Source of the DNA: Candidatus Cloacimonadota bacterium
Lineage (GTDB): Bacteria > Cloacimonadota > Cloacimonadia > Cloacimonadales > TCS61
Direction: 5' to 3'
Length of the DNA stretch: 45,377 bases
Assembly: GCA_016935235.1 (NCBI GenBank)
Contig: JAFGRJ010000124.1
Span: forward strand, 1 to 45,377
Of the stretch, positions 8 through 12,318 are shown piece after piece. The position numbers and the translations under genes were made by a program. Under the pieces are notes generated by a model. The model saw only the letters and a list, made by a program, of their open reading frames with translations. It was not told the origin of the DNA and made no database searches. Each line of letters opens with the position of its first letter. The stretch's first letter is position 1.

Positions 8-871
8 GTGGATCCCTATGATGATCAGCCGATGATCCCCTACGACCTGGATGAGGACGGCGTTGTGGACAGCTGGGATGAGAATGGCTTGGTGGAATTC
101 GTTACGGTATGGCCTTCTCATTTCTTCGTGGGCGACTATCAGGACGGCTCTTTTCATGAACATTGTTTCAAAATAACCAAGAATGAAGAAATGGGCTGGG
201 TAGTCGCTTTCTTCATGGATGGTCGTTACCTGATGGAGTCTTATTATGAAACACCGGGCTATGAGGACTGGGCAGAAATTGCTCAGATAGCTGTATGCAT
301 GTCTACTGATCATGGCGCCACCTGGTCCGAACCTGCCTACCTTAATGCCAAGGTTGATGATGTAAACTTTTATCCCGAACTTGAGGGGATGCTGCCCTGT
401 TATATTTATCCCGCCGATGAGATAGAAATCGTCGAAAATAATCACGGCAGGATACCCATTATTTTCTTCAATGATAACAGCTATGGCTCCTATTCTTCAC
501 CAGTGGTTCATGGTCAAAATAATGGTGGAACTATTACCTATGCTGTTCTGGACATCGAAATTGTAACAGACACCGATGATAACACCGTTGCACCTGTTTA
601 CAATCTGGCTCAGAATTATCCCAATCCCTTCAACCCGATAACAACAATTGCCTACAGCCTGAAGGAAGCAGCTAATGTAACACTGGAAGTATTTAACATC
701 AAAGGACAGAAAGTAAAAACGCTCATCAATGAATTCAAGCAACCTAGCGATTACAGCGTGATCTGGGATGGCAGGGATGACCAGGGTCGCCTTCAGGACA
801 GCGGCATCTATTTCTACAAGCTTAATGTCGGAAAATACTCCTCAGCTAAAAAGATGTTATTGCTTAAATAA
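8..871 (+). CDS. Secreted BNR/Asp-box-like protein with C-terminal T9SS/FlgD-like sorting domain (5' end probably outside window)
   Basis: Asp-box-like 'STDHGATW'; C-terminal 'YNLAQNYPNPFNPITTIAYSL...VFNIKGQKVKTL...WDGRDDQGRLQDSGIYFYKL' typical of the Por/FlgD-like C-terminal sorting domain; ORF starts at window edge. Confidence 0.8.
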   Translation: MDPYDDQPMIPYDLDEDGVVDSWDENGLVEFVTVWPSHFFVGDYQDGSFHEHCFKITKNEEMGWVVAFFMDGRYLMESYYETPGYEDWAEIAQIAVCMSTDHGATWSEPAYLNAKVDDVNFYPELEGMLPCYIYPADEIEIVENNHGRIPIIFFNDNSYGSYSSPVVHGQNNGGTITYAVLDIEIVTDTDDNTVAPVYNLAQNYPNPFNPITTIAYSLKEAANVTLEVFNIKGQKVKTLINEFKQPSDYSVIWDGRDDQGRLQDSGIYFYKLNVGKYSSAKKMLLLK

Positions 872-898: not shown

Positions 899-930
899 GG
901 GAGCACGGATTTCCGTGCTCCCTTTTTTTT
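899..930 (+). terminator. Rho-independent terminator downstream of the sorting-domain protein
   Basis: gggagcacgg-attt-ccgtgctccc followed by T8. Confidence 0.9.
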
Positions 931-2932
931 ACTTCAGACCGGCATCCCAGTTGAACTGAGAATACCGGGCTATTGGACGAGATTTCTGATAGGCTTCTAT
1001 CAAGCTGTGGATAAGGTATTGCGAGGGAAGCTGATAGGACAGGTCAAGGAGAAATCTGCGGAAACCGGCTTTATAAAGCTCATTTTTATGATGCAGCCAG
1101 GACACTGGTAGTTCGGGCACCAGACTGGTCAGTCCCTGTATCCTGAAACACCGCAGTTTTAACTCCTTACTGTTTATTATGCTATCCCGGCAACTCCTGA
1201 TGGGAACCCGTGAATAGAATAATTCAGGATAATAGAATAAAGGTACAATCCCTCTGCGATCCTTACCAGCAAGGAGATTCTTCCTGTCATTTTCCAGAGG
1301 ATAGACATACAATTCAACATCATGCTCCTTGAGAAATTGAATAGCGGCATCATTGAGTACATAAATGTTTTCAGCGGTGGAAATATGGATTTTAGCAGTT
1401 CTGGGCAGAAGGTCCTTCTGGGAAATATGGCTGAGCATGAATTGATGGAAACCGGAACGGTAAAAGGCCAGACATAATTGCCGATAGTATTCCAGATCGC
1501 TTTCCATGATGAATCTGGGAAGTTGCAGGATAATTCTGTGCCTGTTCTTCTTCAGAGTATAATTAGAGGGATTTAGATTCTCCCAGTCCTTTTTCTGCAG
1601 GTTCAGGATAAGGTAATGAAATTTATCCCAGTTCAATTTCTGGATCCAGCGGAGTGTAGAAATACGAATAAAGAGTTCGGATGAGGTGCAGATTTTCCCG
1701 GAACCTGTTTTCTGGAGAATATTGCTGATTTTTTTTTGTGACAGACGGTAATTTATTTTCTGTCTGTGTTCCGGGAAGCGGTGAGGAAATTTTTTCTGAG
1801 AACGACCGGTCAGGATTACCTGGTCGTTGATCCTGGCTTTAACCTCCTGGGTGAATATAGTGACCTCATTTCCTGCCTGAGCTCTGGTGACTGGCTGTCC
1901 CTGTTCCTGCATCTGGACTATTTTAAAACTCCGGGCATCTTCATCTCCCTGCGAAAGTAAGCGAAGACGGTCCTGAATATTGAGCAGGGTGCTGGTAGTG
2001 AAGGTAAAAGAATCTTTATTCCTTTTGCCAACCCGACCGATGACCTGGCCTGTATAAGGGATTTCAGTAAAGGGTTTCTGTAAATTCTTCCCCAGGAAAT
2101 ACTGGATTTTTTCCCGGCTCAGATCATTCTTAAGAATATCTCTGGCTTCCGGGAGCCGCGCAGGATCGTCGATCACCATGCGATAAGCTCTGGCTGTGAT
2201 ATAAACATATTCTGCGGATTTCATCCTGCCCTCAATCTTCAGTGATTTTATTCCCAGCTTGCAAAGATAGGGAACTAGGTCGATCAGTTGCAGGTCCCTG
2301 AGACTGAACAGATACCCATCTTTGTCCAGCTGCCGGTAAGCACGACGGCAGGGCTGGCAGCATAGTCCGCGATTAGCGCTCATACCACCCATGTAACTGC
2401 TGAACAGGCAGAGGCCAGATACGGAATAACAGAGGGCACCGTGAATAAATAATTCCAGTTCAACGCCGCTGCTTCTGGAAACGTGTTCCAGTTCTTTCAA
2501 GGTTAATTCACGTGCCAGGATTATTCTCTGCATGCCCAGATTATGGAAAAATTTACAGCCTGCTGAATTATGGACGGTCATCTGGGTACTGGCAAAAAGG
2601 GGAATTGAATCATGATATTTATGAAGCAGATGAAGAACTCCCAGGTCCTGGATGATGATAGCGGAGATTTTAATCTGTGAGATTTGATAGAGAATATTCA
2701 ATAATTCAGGCAGCTCATTATTTTTTATTAGGGTATTGAGGGTGAGGTAGACTTTTATTTTCTCATTGGTTGCTTTTTTTACCAGAACCTGCAACTGATC
2801 GATTGTGAAGTTCAGGGCTTTACCTCTGGCATTAAAGGATTTCAAGCCCAGGTAAACTGAGTCGGCACCTCCCTCCAGAGCAGCGTAGAAAGCTTCCGGG
2901 TTGCCGACCGGAAGCAGTAACTCGGGTTTCAT
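929..2932 (-). CDS. Peptidase U32 family protein
   Basis: N-terminal 'PELLLPVGNPEAFYAALEGGADSVYLG'; U32 signature-like 'ELFIHGALCYSVSGLCLFSS'. Confidence 0.9.
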   Translation of the reverse strand: MKPELLLPVGNPEAFYAALEGGADSVYLGLKSFNARGKALNFTIDQLQVLVKKATNEKIKVYLTLNTLIKNNELPELLNILYQISQIKISAIIIQDLGVLHLLHKYHDSIPLFASTQMTVHNSAGCKFFHNLGMQRIILARELTLKELEHVSRSSGVELELFIHGALCYSVSGLCLFSSYMGGMSANRGLCCQPCRRAYRQLDKDGYLFSLRDLQLIDLVPYLCKLGIKSLKIEGRMKSAEYVYITARAYRMVIDDPARLPEARDILKNDLSREKIQYFLGKNLQKPFTEIPYTGQVIGRVGKRNKDSFTFTTSTLLNIQDRLRLLSQGDEDARSFKIVQMQEQGQPVTRAQAGNEVTIFTQEVKARINDQVILTGRSQKKFPHRFPEHRQKINYRLSQKKISNILQKTGSGKICTSSELFIRISTLRWIQKLNWDKFHYLILNLQKKDWENLNPSNYTLKKNRHRIILQLPRFIMESDLEYYRQLCLAFYRSGFHQFMLSHISQKDLLPRTAKIHISTAENIYVLNDAAIQFLKEHDVELYVYPLENDRKNLLAGKDRRGIVPLFYYPELFYSRVPIRSCRDSIINSKELKLRCFRIQGLTSLVPELPVSWLHHKNELYKAGFRRFLLDLSYQLPSQYLIHSLIEAYQKSRPIARYSQFNWDAGLK

Positions 2933-2933
2933 A

Positions 2934-3410
2934 TCAGAGAGTTTTCAGCAGGACCACAGCCGTTGCGGTTACTGCTTTACCGCGTCCTGTTATTCCCAGG
3001 CCTTCTTCGGTGGTTGCTTTGAGGGAAACATTCCACAGGTCAGTATGCAGATCGCTGGCAAGATTCTCCTGCATTTTTTTCAGGTAAGTCTGCAGTTTGG
3101 GCTTTTCAGCGCAGATGGTTGCATCGAGGTTGCCGATCTCATAACCCGTGTTATCCATGAGGTCGGTTATTTCCCGCAGCAGAATACGGCTGTCAATATC
3201 CCGGTAACGTTCGTCAGTATCAGGGAAATGCTGCCCGATATCTCCCTTGGCAAGTGCACCCAGGATGGCGTCTATCACAGCATGGATAAGTACATCGGCA
3301 TCAGAATGTCCCACCAGACCTTTAGGAAAGGGAATGTCCACTCCTCCCAGGATCAGTTTACCCCCGGTATCGCTCAGTTTATGAACATCATAACCATAGC
3401 CTATGCGCAT
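2934..3410 (-). CDS. ispF: 2-C-methyl-D-erythritol 2,4-cyclodiphosphate synthase
   Basis: 'MRIGYGYDVHKL...LGGVDIPFPKGLVGHSDADVLIHAVIDAILGALAKGDIGQHFPDTD'; start trimmed from 3431 to the conserved MRIG start. Confidence 0.95.
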   Translation of the reverse strand: MRIGYGYDVHKLSDTGGKLILGGVDIPFPKGLVGHSDADVLIHAVIDAILGALAKGDIGQHFPDTDERYRDIDSRILLREITDLMDNTGYEIGNLDATICAEKPKLQTYLKKMQENLASDLHTDLWNVSLKATTEEGLGITGRGKAVTATAVVLLKTL

Positions 3411-3423
3411 ACTGTCCTCCCGA

Positions 3424-6141
3424 TCAGTCAACTGTTATGGATTTGGATACATTTTTGGGCACGTCCGGATGGACTCCGTGTTCCATGATACCGAGTTTAT
3501 CCAGTTTTTCCTTTTTCTTGATACTCATCCGCAGAGCCAGAAGCTGCAGCACGATTGTAGCAGAAAAGGTGGTCATCAGGGAATCGCCTGTCTTGGGCAG
3601 GATAATGTAACTCCAGCCGTAGTATCCCTCATCATTGGGATTCATGCGTGCATTTTCCAGTAACTCGTCATTTTCCTCAGCTATGACAAAAGTATCGCCC
3701 CCGCGGATTTTATGAGTGTTGATCTGGGATATGGTCAAATTGATGTCCTGTTCTTCCGGTCCGGTTACATAGATCAATGGGTAATTCCTGTAGACATGGC
3801 TGAAAAAATCACGTTCAGAGACGAAATTCTTGAAGAATTCAGCTCCTTCCCGGGAAAGGTCAAAGGGGAAAGTCCTCTTGAATATATAATTTACCAGAGA
3901 CTGGGTCATGCTTCTGATCTCTAGTTCCGGAATACCTTCCTCCCGGGCGGAAGATTCCAGTTCAATTGTCAACTGATTGTAGTTTTTCAACATTGCCTTC
4001 ATATTTTTAATACCGAAGACAGTATTTCTTCCCAGGATTGTATTGGGACCATGTTTGAATTCGGAAGCTTCACCGCCCTCAGCATGATTTAGAACCGTCT
4101 CCCTTATCTTGAGAGCACCTTCCTTGGCTACACCGGTGAGTTTAGTGGCCAGAATATGCATGGAAGGTTCCATGTATATTTTCCCGGCAGCATATTCGAT
4201 CTGTTCCGCGGTTGTTTCGATTGTTTCTTTGATGAGTTGGGGTATGTCGTTAATGGATTTCAGGCGGGTTGTCAGTTTATGATTGAGGAGAGCTGTTTTC
4301 TCCTGATCTGCAGAACTAATATTCCTGATATTCTGCTCCAGCACCTTGATAGCCAGGTAGTAGAAAAGGGTTATCTGGTTGATGAAACTTTTAGTTGCCG
4401 GTACAGCGATTTCCGGGCCACAGAAAATCGGGATTGAAACATCGCATTTTTCCTGTCCCAGCGTGGAATTCATATTATTAACCAGTACAATGGTTTTAAT
4501 ATCCAGTCCGAGATTCTCCACATAATTGAAGATATCGATCAGATCCTTGGTTTCACCGCTCTGGGATACACCCAGGATAACATCATTATTGCAAAGGCTT
4601 TTGGAGAACTGTCCCCGGAAATTACCGGGGAGCACGGGTATTATGTCCAGATTGGCGATATCATTGAAGAAAATGGAAGCGATCATGGCAGCATGGAAGG
4701 ATGTCCCACAGGCAATGGCATAGATATTACGGTTGAACCTGCAGCTGTTTGCAACTATATCAAGGAAATGTTCGATGCTCTGATTGAACTCCTTGACATC
4801 ATTCATCTCGCTGATCGAATCCAGCGCTTTGGCGAGGAGCAGTTTTTTCTTGTTGAAATATGAGTTCAGGAGTTCAATAAAAGTGTTTTTATTGGCAGAA
4901 AAGAAGTATTTCTTCTCAAAATCTTTCTTTACCAGTTCATTGTAAATGGAAACATACTGTTCTCTGACTTTCTGATAGAATGCATCGGCTTTTACGGAAG
5001 ATTCAAACCTGGAAAACAGGTTCGTCTGTTGGACCGGATCCTCGGTTTTAAGGATGTTTCTGCCCAGATCTTCGATATCATCAAAGAAATTTTCCTTTTT
5101 TAGCAGCTCAATCATACGGGTTCCCGTATTTGAGCCACCCTGGAAAAGCTTGATAAGCTTACCGGAGGTTTCAACTTCCGCATAGATTTCCTGCTCCATG
5201 AAATACTGAAAAGGGGGAACCAGTTCTGTGTCCTCTGCTCTCAGTTTTGATCTTACCGGCTGTTTGGGGATATGGTCACCCGGATTGATTATGAATTCAG
5301 CCTGGTTAGGTCGCTTGATCTTGAGTTTGCGGAGGGCGAAGATCTTATAGTCATCAACTTTGAATTCCACGAACTCACCTTCACGAAGATTAATCAGGGT
5401 TTTGGTGAATTTAAGTACAGCAGTAAGATCGGAAGAAGCCAGTCCAAACCTGTTACCCTCTATTTCACCGATGCCAAAATACAGGCTGCTCCCGCCCTTG
5501 ATAGCGTAAATGAATTCGGTATAGGGGTCCACAATCACAGCGGCATAGGAGCCCACCATCCTGGAACTGGCAATGATTATGGCATTGCGCATGGACTGGC
5601 AGCGAATCTGGGGATTGTGCTGGTCCCTGTCGCCGTGTCTTCCCAGTTCATTATCGAAATAATGCTCAATAGTATGAACCAGCATTTCGCCATCATTATT
5701 GGAAACAACATTATGACCTTCTGAGATCAGGAAACTTTTCAATTCCCGGGAATTGGTGATATTGCCATTATGAGCACCATAAATGTGCTGCTTGCATTTT
5801 ACTTCATGGGGTTGAGCGTTCTTGGGTGTGACAGTGCCAAATGTCGCCCAGCGAACCTGACCACAGAAAATTTTTCCCTGCTGCTTATCGATTCCCAGTG
5901 TTTTGACCAGAGTACTGGGTGCTCCTACATCCTTAAGCAGAATGATATTTTTCTTACCATCCTGGAATACACCGCCCGTGGAATCATAACCCCTGTATTC
6001 AAGGGCTTTTAGCAGTGTGGCAGCGTACTGGCCGAGCTTGACACTCACCCGGGCAAGTCCCAAACCCAGCACACCACAGCCCAGACCGGGGATAGGTATA
6101 TTAATCGTAAAATCAAATTTTCTTAATATCTTTTCTATCAT
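3424..6141 (-). CDS. GlmS-like glutamine--fructose-6-phosphate aminotransferase (Ntn glutaminase plus two SIS domains), enlarged to 905 aa
   Basis: 'CGVLG...LEYRGYDSTG', 'RWATFG', 'HNGNITN', 'CGTSFHAA', 'SQSGET', 'HAEGGEASEFKHGP' and C-terminal 'PKNVSKSITVD' all match GlmS landmarks. Confidence 0.88.
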   Translation of the reverse strand: MIEKILRKFDFTINIPIPGLGCGVLGLGLARVSVKLGQYAATLLKALEYRGYDSTGGVFQDGKKNIILLKDVGAPSTLVKTLGIDKQQGKIFCGQVRWATFGTVTPKNAQPHEVKCKQHIYGAHNGNITNSRELKSFLISEGHNVVSNNDGEMLVHTIEHYFDNELGRHGDRDQHNPQIRCQSMRNAIIIASSRMVGSYAAVIVDPYTEFIYAIKGGSSLYFGIGEIEGNRFGLASSDLTAVLKFTKTLINLREGEFVEFKVDDYKIFALRKLKIKRPNQAEFIINPGDHIPKQPVRSKLRAEDTELVPPFQYFMEQEIYAEVETSGKLIKLFQGGSNTGTRMIELLKKENFFDDIEDLGRNILKTEDPVQQTNLFSRFESSVKADAFYQKVREQYVSIYNELVKKDFEKKYFFSANKNTFIELLNSYFNKKKLLLAKALDSISEMNDVKEFNQSIEHFLDIVANSCRFNRNIYAIACGTSFHAAMIASIFFNDIANLDIIPVLPGNFRGQFSKSLCNNDVILGVSQSGETKDLIDIFNYVENLGLDIKTIVLVNNMNSTLGQEKCDVSIPIFCGPEIAVPATKSFINQITLFYYLAIKVLEQNIRNISSADQEKTALLNHKLTTRLKSINDIPQLIKETIETTAEQIEYAAGKIYMEPSMHILATKLTGVAKEGALKIRETVLNHAEGGEASEFKHGPNTILGRNTVFGIKNMKAMLKNYNQLTIELESSAREEGIPELEIRSMTQSLVNYIFKRTFPFDLSREGAEFFKNFVSERDFFSHVYRNYPLIYVTGPEEQDINLTISQINTHKIRGGDTFVIAEENDELLENARMNPNDEGYYGWSYIILPKTGDSLMTTFSATIVLQLLALRMSIKKKEKLDKLGIMEHGVHPDVPKNVSKSITVD

Positions 6142-6833
6142 ATTTTTTTTCCCTGATGCTTCCTCTTTATGAGAACTTCCGCCATCACAAGATCATCAAA
6201 ATAGGTAATCTTAAAATTAGTGCCGGTCGTTTCCCATCCGAATACGTTATGACCGTAATGCTCGAGAATAGCGGCATCATCTGTGAATTCAAGATGGTCT
6301 GCAACAGACTTCCGATGCATGTCCAAAATAAGTTCATAAGCGAACACCTGAGGAGTCAATGCGTTGAATAATCCCACTCGATCAATGGTTTTCTGAATTT
6401 TATCTCCGGTCATCACCTTTATGGTATCTCTTACTTTTACAACAGGGATAACAGCCTGCTTCAGTTTGACCAGACGAAGTAGATTACTGATATCCTCCGA
6501 CTTAACAAAGGGCCTTACTCCATCGTGGATAAGAACATATGCAGTTTCAGGAGCACATTTTCTCAGGGCGTTGAATACTGATTCCTGACGTGTGTTTCCA
6601 CCAGGGACTATCTGAATTTTAGTGGAGGGGTATTCCAATTTTATTTTATCGGAATAAACGGACATTTCCGGTGCCGGTAGGGTTATGATGATTGAATCGA
6701 TCCCGGGATGAGTGAAAAAAACATCGATGGTCCAGAAAAGCAGTGGTCTGCCGGCAAGGGACAGAAACTGCTTTTTGTGCAGGGTATTCATTCTGTTACC
6801 GCTTCCCCCAGCGGTTATGATGGCAGTATTCAA
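6138..6833 (-). CDS. ispD: 2-C-methyl-D-erythritol 4-phosphate cytidylyltransferase
   Basis: 'AIITAGGSGNRMNTLHKKQFLSLAGRPLLFWTI', 'VLIHDGVRPFV', 'TPQVFAYELI'. Confidence 0.93.
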   Translation of the reverse strand: MNTAIITAGGSGNRMNTLHKKQFLSLAGRPLLFWTIDVFFTHPGIDSIIITLPAPEMSVYSDKIKLEYPSTKIQIVPGGNTRQESVFNALRKCAPETAYVLIHDGVRPFVKSEDISNLLRLVKLKQAVIPVVKVRDTIKVMTGDKIQKTIDRVGLFNALTPQVFAYELILDMHRKSVADHLEFTDDAAILEHYGHNVFGWETTGTNFKITYFDDLVMAEVLIKRKHQGKKI

Positions 6834-8724: not shown

Positions 8725-9060
8725 TTAATGATCGCAGGGATTAGTTCCCGTTTCCAGTTTGTTCTCAAGAAAGAGGTTGATCAAATCCTGCGGCAACTGA
8801 CCTGTGGCTCCGGTTATAACCTCGATATTCTGCATGTTGAAATGCTGTCTGGCTCTATGTCCCATGCCACCACATATGACAACACTGATTCCCTTATCAG
8901 CCAGGAAATGAGGATATGCTCCCGGTTCATGGACGGGTGGTATAAGAGTCTCCTCGCTTTTGATTTCTTTATTATCAACGGTGTAAACAGCAAAATTCTG
9001 ACAATGACCAAAATGCTGTGCTAAAAGCCCATTATTCACCGGTATAGCTATTTTCTTCAT
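8725..9060 (-). CDS. NifX/NifB-C-terminal-like Fe-Mo cofactor-binding family protein
   Basis: 'MKKIAIPVNNGLLAQHFGHCQNFAVYTV...VVICGGMGHRARQHF' dinitrogenase FeMo-cofactor family pattern; start trimmed from 9087. Confidence 0.9.
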   Translation of the reverse strand: MKKIAIPVNNGLLAQHFGHCQNFAVYTVDNKEIKSEETLIPPVHEPGAYPHFLADKGISVVICGGMGHRARQHFNMQNIEVITGATGQLPQDLINLFLENKLETGTNPCDH

Positions 9061-9113
9061 TTTATCTCCTTTTAAACTGAAATCCAATATTATCGGAAGA
9101 GCAACAGACGGAT

Positions 9114-9452
9114 TTAAAACTGCTTCAACTTATTATCCTTATACGCACGGTATGCTTCATCGACCGTCATACCACCTGCTCCTACCAATATCCTGACGCC
9201 TGACGTGTTAAGAACTCTGGCAGCATTATTGCCGGGACCATTTCCAGTAATAAGGACACCGACTCCTGCTTCAATAATCTTCTGGGCTGTCCTCGGCCCG
9301 GCTCCATGAGCAACACTGGTTATGGCACTGTTGTCGATAATCTGTTTACTGTTATCTTTCTCGTCAAGGATGATAAAATACTCCGACCGGCCAAAGCGAG
9401 GATCGATCGGTGAATTCATCTCCAAACCCGTTGTACTGAAAGCTATTTTCAT
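9114..9452 (-). CDS. NifX-like Fe-Mo cluster-binding family protein (ORP-like)
   Basis: 'MKIAFSTTGLEMNSPIDPRFGRSEYFIILD...GAGPRTAQKIIEAGVGVLITGNGPGNNAARVL'. Confidence 0.9.
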   Translation of the reverse strand: MKIAFSTTGLEMNSPIDPRFGRSEYFIILDEKDNSKQIIDNSAITSVAHGAGPRTAQKIIEAGVGVLITGNGPGNNAARVLNTSGVRILVGAGGMTVDEAYRAYKDNKLKQF

Positions 9453-10336
9453 GTATCCTCCCCTGATATCTGTTTCAAAATAATATCCCAGGAATTGTTT
9501 ATCTTCAGGATGATATTTTCGGCATCAGTCTCCATAATGGTTTTTCCCGCTATCATCGCGTCTGAGAATGATCTGGAAAAAGGTATTTCAGCCAGCAGGG
9601 CTATTTCCCTGCTGACCAGGAAATCCTTTATTTCTGAGCTTATCTTCTCATTGAGGTCGCATTTATTTATGATACATCCTGCTGGCAGTCCAAACTTGCT
9701 TAACAGTATGTGTACCCTTTGCAGATCGTGAAAGGCGGAGCGACTGGGCTCGGTTACCATGACAACATAACCTGCTCCGGCAAGAGATGATATCACTGGA
9801 CAACCGATACCGGGGGAACCATCTACCAGGATAATATTTATTTTCTCCTTCTCCGCCAGCTTTCTGGCTTCTTTTTTCACTTTTGTGACCAGCTTTCCGG
9901 AATTTTCCGCCCCTATATCAAGTTCTGCATGAACAAGGATATTATCAAATCTGGTCTGTGAAATCTGAAAAATTCCGACTTTTCTTTCCGGTAGTGAAAT
10001 AGCCTGCTCCGGGCATATATGGAAACAATATCCACAACCCTCGCAGGATAGAGGATCTACAGAAAATCCCGTTCCGCCCGCATTGATTGCGTGGAAGCGG
10101 CAGATCTGAAAACATCTGGCACATGACGAGCAGAGGGAAGTGTTTATTTTTGCTTCCACACCACTGAAAAAAATCTCGGAAAGAATAGCCTGTGGCCTCG
10201 TTACAAGATGCATATCGGCAGCATCAACATCGCAGTCAGCCAGGATACAGTTTCCCCCTAATAGATAAGACATGGCGGCAGTGATCGAGGTTTTCCCGGT
10301 TCCACCCTTGCCTGATATAAAAACGATCTCTTTCAT
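9449..10336 (-). CDS. MinD/Mrp-like P-loop ATPase with inserted 4Fe-4S ferredoxin domain
   Basis: Deviant Walker A 'SGKGGTGKTSIT'; 'CSSCARCFQICRF' and 'CEGCGYCFHICPEQAI'; 'ILVDGSPGIGCPVISS'. Confidence 0.92.
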   Translation of the reverse strand: MKEIVFISGKGGTGKTSITAAMSYLLGGNCILADCDVDAADMHLVTRPQAILSEIFFSGVEAKINTSLCSSCARCFQICRFHAINAGGTGFSVDPLSCEGCGYCFHICPEQAISLPERKVGIFQISQTRFDNILVHAELDIGAENSGKLVTKVKKEARKLAEKEKINIILVDGSPGIGCPVISSLAGAGYVVMVTEPSRSAFHDLQRVHILLSKFGLPAGCIINKCDLNEKISSEIKDFLVSREIALLAEIPFSRSFSDAMIAGKTIMETDAENIILKINNSWDIILKQISGEDT

Positions 10337-11187
10337 GCCAGTTGCAGGTTATTCGCTATTACACTCAAGGCTTCCCGGATCACCGGGATCTCCTGATACA
10401 ATAATCTGCCTGCGGAATATAGCTCCGCGGCTCTTCTCATGTAGGGTATACAGGCAATTATTCTGTAATTCGCAGAATGGCAGAATTCAATAATGGTACT
10501 GTCAAATTCATCTCCTGCCTGATTCAGGACAATGCTGAAGGATTTATCCAATTTCTCCATGGTTTTTATGGCCAGCTTCAGGTCATGAAAACCAAAAGGA
10601 GTTGGTTCTGTGACCAGAATTACATGTTCAGCGGATTTTGTGACCTCTAGCATGGGACATGATGTACCCGGGGGAGAATCAAATATGAGAAGATCGTCAC
10701 TTGCTGCAATTCCTTTCAGATAGGATATGGTAGCGGAGATAAGAGGTACTGCTGAGACCTGTCCTATCTCCAGGTGGCTGTCGACCAGCTGGAGTTTCTT
10801 GCTGATTATGGAATGATAGAGAATACCACCTGTTTCACCGTGCATGGGCAGGGATGAAGTGGGACATAATTCCGAACAGGCAAAGCAACTATGGCACAAC
10901 TCCGGGAAAAGCATTATTCGATCCGGTATTTTCAGAACTGCGTTAAATCTGCATAATTCCTGACACTTACCGCACATTATGCAGGTGCGTTCAATCCACT
11001 CCGGGATCATCCTGCATATCTTTTCGGAATGAACCTGCCTTCCTTTTAAAAAAATACCGGAATTCGGTTCTTCCACATCAAGATCAGCCAATATAACCTT
11101 CCGCTTCTCCGCCAGAAATGCCGAGAGATTCACCGCCAGGGTAGTTTTTCCTGTTCCACCTTTACCGCTGGCTATGGCAATGATCAA
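10333..11187 (-). CDS. MinD/Mrp-like P-loop ATPase with inserted 4Fe-4S ferredoxin domain (paralog of the neighbour)
   Basis: 'ASGKGGTGKTTLAVNLSAFLAEKRKVILADLDVEEPN'; 'CIMCGKCQELCRF', 'CHSCFACSELCP'. Confidence 0.92.
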   Translation of the reverse strand: MIIAIASGKGGTGKTTLAVNLSAFLAEKRKVILADLDVEEPNSGIFLKGRQVHSEKICRMIPEWIERTCIMCGKCQELCRFNAVLKIPDRIMLFPELCHSCFACSELCPTSSLPMHGETGGILYHSIISKKLQLVDSHLEIGQVSAVPLISATISYLKGIAASDDLLIFDSPPGTSCPMLEVTKSAEHVILVTEPTPFGFHDLKLAIKTMEKLDKSFSIVLNQAGDEFDSTIIEFCHSANYRIIACIPYMRRAAELYSAGRLLYQEIPVIREALSVIANNLQLA

Positions 11188-11438
11188 TCCACTACCTCAA
11201 TTTCCTTGATCTGCCTGGCAGTGCTTTCAGGTATTTTCCCTTGTTCAGGTTGGCTTATTCTTTGTCTGATGCTATTATAAAGCCGCTTTAATCTGCTTTC
11301 AGGTTTCGTCAGATCCTCGATAATATACCCGGCTAACCCGGAAACTATCGTGAAAAGAAGAGCTCCCGAACTTCGACCTGACTTCCTGCTGTCCCCGCTA
11401 TACCGATTAACCCTTTCTCTCTTTCGCAATCTTAACAT
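11184..11438 (-). CDS. Hypothetical small basic protein of the NifX/MinD cluster
   Basis: ORF with start trimmed to M31 of the supplied ORF; ATGA overlap with the downstream MinD-like gene; no family recognised. Confidence 0.5.
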   Translation of the reverse strand: MLRLRKRERVNRYSGDSRKSGRSSGALLFTIVSGLAGYIIEDLTKPESRLKRLYNSIRQRISQPEQGKIPESTARQIKEIEVVD

Positions 11439-11463
11439 CTGTGTTCTCACGCAGGGGATTTTT

Positions 11464-11772
11464 TTACTTTTCTTTCTTCTTGTTTTCCAGAGCTTCCAGC
11501 CTTGACCGCATTGCGTCCAGTTGACCATTCATTCTCTCGATTTCTTTCTCGAGAAATTCCTTTTCATCGTACTCTACCGGTTCTGGGTAAGGATAATACT
11601 CAGGCATATATCTGCGAAATCCCCCGAAAAAACGGCGAAATCCCATCCTCAGATGACGGCGTGGCTGATAAGGATTGGCATATCCGGGTCGATCATAACC
11701 TGCACAATAACCTGCCCCTCTTCCAGTCATGGGACCAAATCCATCCGGTCCAGTTCTATCTCCTCTTGGCAT
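11464..11772 (-). CDS. DUF5320-like protein
   Basis: 'MPRGDRTGPDGFGPMTGRGAGYCAGYDRPG' Gly/Arg-rich N-terminus and C-terminal coiled coil, typical of DUF5320. Confidence 0.8.
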   Translation of the reverse strand: MPRGDRTGPDGFGPMTGRGAGYCAGYDRPGYANPYQPRRHLRMGFRRFFGGFRRYMPEYYPYPEPVEYDEKEFLEKEIERMNGQLDAMRSRLEALENKKKEK

Positions 11773-11774
11773 AA

Positions 11775-12227
11775 TTACCTCCCTCGTCTTTTTCTTTTTG
11801 CACAACAATTACCATGACCGAAACCACCAGCAAGATCTAGCAGATTTGCCGAATCGCAGGCAGGACAGGAGACAATAGGCTGGGTGAAATCATTTTTGAA
11901 CAAATGCCCACAATCCAGACAACGGATCAGATTTCCCCGGAAATGAATATTTCCTCCCGCGATAACGAGCTCTCTACCTTCTATCAGAAATTCAGCTATT
12001 TTGCTGCGGGCTTTTTCGATCAACCTGGTGAAAGTTGACCGTGAGATTTCCATCTCATCAGCTGCTGACAGATGATCGTGCCCCAGAAAATCAGCAAGCC
12101 GGATTGCCTCGAATTCATCAAGACTGAGCTGAATCGGGGTTAACTGGCTGCGCTGGATCCTTATGGGCTTGAATTCAGTATAGAGCGGTGGCTGTCTCAC
12201 TGTTCTCTCTTTCTGTGGTCGAGTCAT
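11775..12227 (-). CDS. DUF134 family putative DNA-binding protein with C-terminal zinc ribbon
   Basis: 'LTPIQLSLDEFEAIRLADFLGHDHLSAADEMEISRSTFTRLIEKARSKIAEFLIEGREL'; CxxC pairs 'CLDCGHLF...CPACDS'; RBS aaaggag before 12227. Confidence 0.88.
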   Translation of the reverse strand: MTRPQKERTVRQPPLYTEFKPIRIQRSQLTPIQLSLDEFEAIRLADFLGHDHLSAADEMEISRSTFTRLIEKARSKIAEFLIEGRELVIAGGNIHFRGNLIRCLDCGHLFKNDFTQPIVSCPACDSANLLDLAGGFGHGNCCAKRKRRGR

Positions 12228-12318
12228 GCATTCTCCTTTATCATGGGAGGCATTATTTTGCACATATGTTCATTAGTCAAGCAAAAATTTACTGCAGTCA
12301 GTTAAAAGATATCAGAAT

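Follow-up and report, generated by a model that had tools for sequence, protein, structure and literature searches.

The window analyzed here, a 45,377-nucleotide stretch of DNA from a Cloacimonadota bacterium, encodes on its minus strand a long GlmS-like protein situated between ispD and ispF (Table 1), with a start codon that overlaps the ispD stop codon as ATGA. Most Cloacimonadota copies of the long gene sit between these same two genes, often followed by a gene of the U32 family, and a few Cloacimonadota loci were without one of ispD or ispF within the stretch examined. The ispD-X-ispF neighborhood was not seen in the stretches examined around copies from outside Cloacimonadota. An amino-sugar-type enzyme is in this way kept within an isoprenoid cluster (positions 2934-6833 in the window) across Cloacimonadota.

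Also found in the window were a 667-aa U32-family protein (929-2932, minus strand) that resembles the tRNA hydroxylase TrhP, with a score below the TrhP cut-off, and that is conserved after ispF in family f1; a reading frame at 8-871 (plus strand) whose C-terminal domain has, by eye, the look of a sorting signal for type IX secretion (NLAQNYPNPFNP... to a C-terminal KMLLLK); and, at 8725-12263 (minus strand), what appear by eye to be NifX/NifB-type genes together with two ATPases that are MinD-like and carry Cys motifs of the ferredoxin type.

Table 1. Coordinates of the long GlmS-like gene, its parts and its neighbors in the window.
Feature	Position	Strand	Basis or remark
ispD	6138..6833	-	TIGR00453 above cut-off; conserved neighbor; stop overlaps GlmS-like start
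Possible ribosome-binding site AGGG, 5' of ATG	6151..6154	-	
Long GlmS-like protein	3424..6141	-	905 aa; ATG start; stop included
Putative propeptide, residues 1-21, MIEKILRKFDFTINIPIPGLG	6079..6141	-	Removal inferred
Cys22 codon TGT	6076..6078	-	Predicted N-terminal nucleophile; model strand E22-33 starts here
Class II (Ntn) glutaminase domain, ~residues 22-280	5302..6078	-	Pfam GATase_6/7; Foldseek to 1xff (isolated glutaminase domain), TM 0.91 by target
Helical insertion, ~residues 320-468, absent from standard GlmS	4738..5184	-	Alignment, model
First SIS (isomerase) subdomain, residues 471-598	4348..4731	-	Pfam SIS, catalytic residues
Helical insertion in second SIS subdomain, ~residues 711-785	3787..4011	-	Alignment, model
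C-terminal tail PKNVSKSITVD with catalytic Lys (E. coli K603)	3427..3459	-	Alignment; tail invariant among copies
ispF	2934..3431	-	TIGR00151 above cut-off; conserved neighbor; ORF from TTG, ATG at ~3410

Catalysis by class II amidotransferases depends on a Cys at the N-terminus whose alpha-amino group is free. A sequence-only reading of this locus had placed the corresponding Cys at residue 22 of the long protein, behind a GGC codon, and had argued that no re-annotated start could expose it; when the sequence was re-read, the limits of the reading frame, the residue number and the GGC all stood as claimed. The GGC (6081-6079) lies directly before the TGT of Cys22 (6078-6076), so the arrangement that marks GlmS, a Cys directly after the initiator Met, is absent from the long protein. 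The ATG at 6141-6139, 21 codons 5' of Cys22, is the single in-frame start ahead of it, and Gly would still precede the Cys if translation began at a CTG at residue 20.

Alignment to E. coli GlmS confirmed that the landmarks of both catalytic halves are intact, as the same reading had proposed. The glutaminase residues Cys1, R26, G27, R73, W74, T76, N98, G99 and D123 all have matches, as do the isomerase residues T302, S303, S347-S349, T352, V399, K485, E488, H504 and K603; the glutaminase domain, the two SIS domains and the eleven residues by which GlmS is recognized (C1, R26, R73, W74, N98, G99, D123, K485, E488, H504 and K603) are present together. Core catalytic residues of both halves were invariant in 31 aligned copies. 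Three differences from the E. coli enzyme were H77F, H86Q and S401A; the first two, which lie near the glutamine, were found in the propeptide-clade copies aligned, and because the isomerase S401 is Ala, the substrate of the long protein may differ. A structure model matched E. coli GlmS (1jxa) over its whole length (Foldseek, TM 0.84 by target), with the extra length of the long protein mainly in two helical insertions.

The long protein has the same two halves as GlmS/GFAT (TIGR01135), in the same order and with the same fold and core catalytic residues, but is about 300 aa longer (905 vs ~610), carries the two insertions and has a propeptide in place of the Met before Cys. GlmS/GFAT subunits have a published size range of 589-716 (PMC9272926), and GFAT loses its initiator Met (PMC7000685). 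The score of the long protein on the NCBIfam equivalog TIGR01135 was 273 bits, in three stretches, below the cut-off of 418, whereas the canonical GlmS of the same genome, which starts MCGIVG, scored 837 bits. On TIGR01134 (PurF) the long protein scored 71 bits against a cut-off of 350, in the glutaminase part only, which places it outside PurF. The genome's own PurF starts MCGIFG, and since its canonical GlmS and its PurF both start Met-Cys, the leader is specific to the long gene among these three. Sequence comparison thus indicates that the protein is a member of a distinct, longer GlmS-type family (~850-905 aa); the GlmS-like label that it was first given holds for its catalytic landmarks, but not in the sense of a standard GlmS that has acquired a leader.

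The large subunit of glutamate synthase, GltB, also belongs to class II and is likewise synthesized with a propeptide ahead of its Cys; it can be likened to the long protein in this respect, and differs from it in its leader and in its synthase half, which is unrelated. A likeness was also found in PurF with a propeptide, as in B. subtilis and eukaryotes, where a class II glutaminase Cys is likewise located behind a short leader, and where versions with and without a leader coexist within one family, as they do in the long GlmS-like family; the second half of PurF is a phosphoribosyltransferase, whereas that of the long protein is an SIS isomerase. Gln at the H86 position is common to the long protein and its genome's own PurF. 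The PurF leader is present in B. subtilis and missing in E. coli, the propeptides of eukaryotic and many microbial PurF proteins cleave autocatalytically, exposing the Cys, and the Arabidopsis propeptide is processed upon expression in E. coli (PMC7056826). In the openly accessible literature we found no report that GlmS carries a propeptide, and none on the GlmS of Cloacimonadota.

Comparison of N-termini among homologues, which the sequence-only reading had called for, showed Gly before Cys in all 54 distinct Cloacimonadota copies, encoded by GGT, GGC or GGA, with ribosome-binding sites about 21 codons 5' of the Cys in most of them; other relatives start M-Cys. When copies from two additional phyla were counted with those of Cloacimonadota, giving 60 distinct ones with a propeptide (the two sets differ slightly, as duplicates were removed over different lengths), the -1 residue was Gly in 59 and Ala in one, and the Gly was encoded by four synonymous codons, a recurrence far beyond chance. 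Position -3 was Gly or Ala in 60/60 (Gly in 53), position -6 was Pro in 58/60, and hydrophobic residues alternate from -11 to -5. The leader thus has a conserved core from -11 to -1, ending right before the nucleophile Cys as class II propeptides do, and upstream of -12 both sequence and length vary. The distance from start to Cys was mostly 21 residues, with a minimum of 13, far-upstream starts being uncertain. In both structure models residues 8-21 had pLDDT below 50 and no defined place, and the first strand started at Cys22 or Gly23. A deeper alignment raised the mean pLDDT from 78 to 86, the first model having been weak in the second SIS subdomain, and left the leader still undefined.

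Members of the long family that lack the leader, as occur in propeptide-bearing class II families, were found in several phyla. Copies from the phyla of genomes G243, G215 and G355 start M-CGV. A leader is present in most copies from the phylum of G205, but those of G390 and G392 start MCGVLG, and in the DNA upstream of these two a ribosome-binding site lies directly before ATG-TGC, with no leader codons. The copy from G391, a genome of the same genus, has a 24-aa propeptide and, across the first 660 residues of the mature part, is 89% identical to its leaderless sisters. In a tree that was restricted to the mature region, the minimum number of leader changes was two, on a topology that includes long branches and in which the placement of G317 and G175 near G215 is weakly supported; because normal GlmS, with Met-Cys, is the outgroup, these changes are read as one gain and one loss. 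Grouping the leader-bearing copies without G390 was rejected by the AU test (p-AU 7.5e-10). Four GlmS-like proteins of ~600 aa (L117-L120, from G316, G287, G250 and G225) branched beside the long family, not with canonical GlmS; judged by this position, they may be short relatives of the long family's ancestor.

It seems very probable from these comparisons that the long protein is a divergent GlmS-type amidotransferase that is made as a precursor, has its leader cut at Gly21-Cys22, and is active on glutamine in its mature form. That a propeptide is cleaved was one of two options offered by the sequence-only reading, and it is strongly supported by relatives, including two sisters of the same genus as a leader-bearing copy, that begin M-Cys at exactly this Cys, and by the intact catalytic residues. 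Because leaderless relatives start at that same Cys, Cys22 is almost certainly the mature N-terminus. The protein would be translated with residues 1-21 as a propeptide, and cleavage after Gly21, most likely autocatalytic as in PurF, would free the alpha-amino group of Cys22. Cys22 would then hydrolyze glutamine, and the ammonia would reach the SIS isomerase half by way of a conserved Trp gate, for the amination of fructose-6-phosphate or a close sugar phosphate. The cleavage, its autocatalytic nature and the substrate are each inferred.

A separate cellular protease might instead remove the propeptide, leaving a mature enzyme that is otherwise the same, and the conservation of the leader core from -11 to -1, which extends beyond the -1 residue as a recognition site would, is in keeping with this idea. 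We consider it unlikely, as the known class II propeptides (PurF) are autocatalytic, with the Arabidopsis one processed even in E. coli (PMC7056826), a residue as small as Gly or Ala at -1 is well suited to an acyl shift involving the Cys, and no candidate protease was linked to the GlmS-like gene. Self-cleavage is favored because of the PurF precedent and the small residue at -1. It is quite improbable that the leader is retained, with the Cys working without a free amino group or with an inactive glutaminase half and the use of free ammonia: H77F and H86Q do fall in the glutamine pocket, and a conserved leader might belong to the folded structure, but conservation extends to all other residues of the glutaminase and to the W74 gate, no part of the models has lower confidence than the leader, relatives start M-Cys, and one lineage has dropped the leader and kept the rest of the protein.

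Two further explanations for the residues ahead of Cys22 were rejected. The Gly before the Cys is superficially lipobox-like, as it would be if the leader were an export or lipoprotein signal that ran up to the Cys, but the residues at -3 and -6 described above, the lack of a hydrophobic stretch of the signal-peptide type (the highest 15-residue mean hydropathies were 1.35-1.79), and the cytosolic character of an enzyme encoded between ispD and ispF make such a signal highly improbable. A wrong start, or a frameshift or sequencing error (the two that the sequence-only reading had named as outcomes that would overturn it), masking a normal M-Cys start can be dismissed as next to impossible; we found no sign in its support, and it is refuted by the conservation of Gly-Cys, with varying synonymous codons, in the 54 distinct Cloacimonadota copies, which come from dozens of independent assemblies.

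The distribution of the long family bears on what the mature enzyme might do. The long family was found in 95/125 Cloacimonadota genomes and in 57 of the 71 good ones, and canonical GlmS in 58 of those 71; both were present in 44, the long form only in 13, the canonical form only in 14, and neither in none, a zero for which the hypergeometric P was 0.04 without correction for kinship. In family f106, from the phylum of G355, canonical GlmS was found in 0/13 tested genomes and the long form in 11/13. Neither form was detected in G459 and G463, genomes of the same phylum that are 96-97% complete, a gap that may reflect either fragmentation or another source of glucosamine-6-phosphate. This pattern of co-occurrence fits a GlmS-like role, without proving it, and because 44 of the 71 genomes also have normal GlmS, amination of fructose-6-phosphate is not the sole plausible one. 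A single-sequence contig scan matched only Cloacimonadota, probably as a result of over-specific peptide patterns, and members from other phyla were reached with a profile search. Viral contigs yielded no relatives of the long family, and plasmid and phage records all covered less than 80% of the query, the listed matches being only to parts shared with normal GlmS.

One tentative picture, which we regard as possible though rather doubtful, is of a hitherto unrecognized second GlmS-type family with a single gain and at least one loss of a self-cleaving leader; in Cloacimonadota it would act on another sugar phosphate or in a regulated branch, and processing would switch it on in connection with the ispD-X-ispF operon. 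Propeptide processing of the long protein would bring into the GlmS branch a mode of activation known for PurF and GltB. The leader-bearing copy of G391 and its leaderless sisters in G390 and G392 constitute a natural experiment, and with their 89% identity the role of the propeptide is directly testable. The family is widespread, falls below current GlmS cut-offs and can be the sole GlmS-type gene of a genome, and is easily missed in the annotation of cell-wall sugar pathways.
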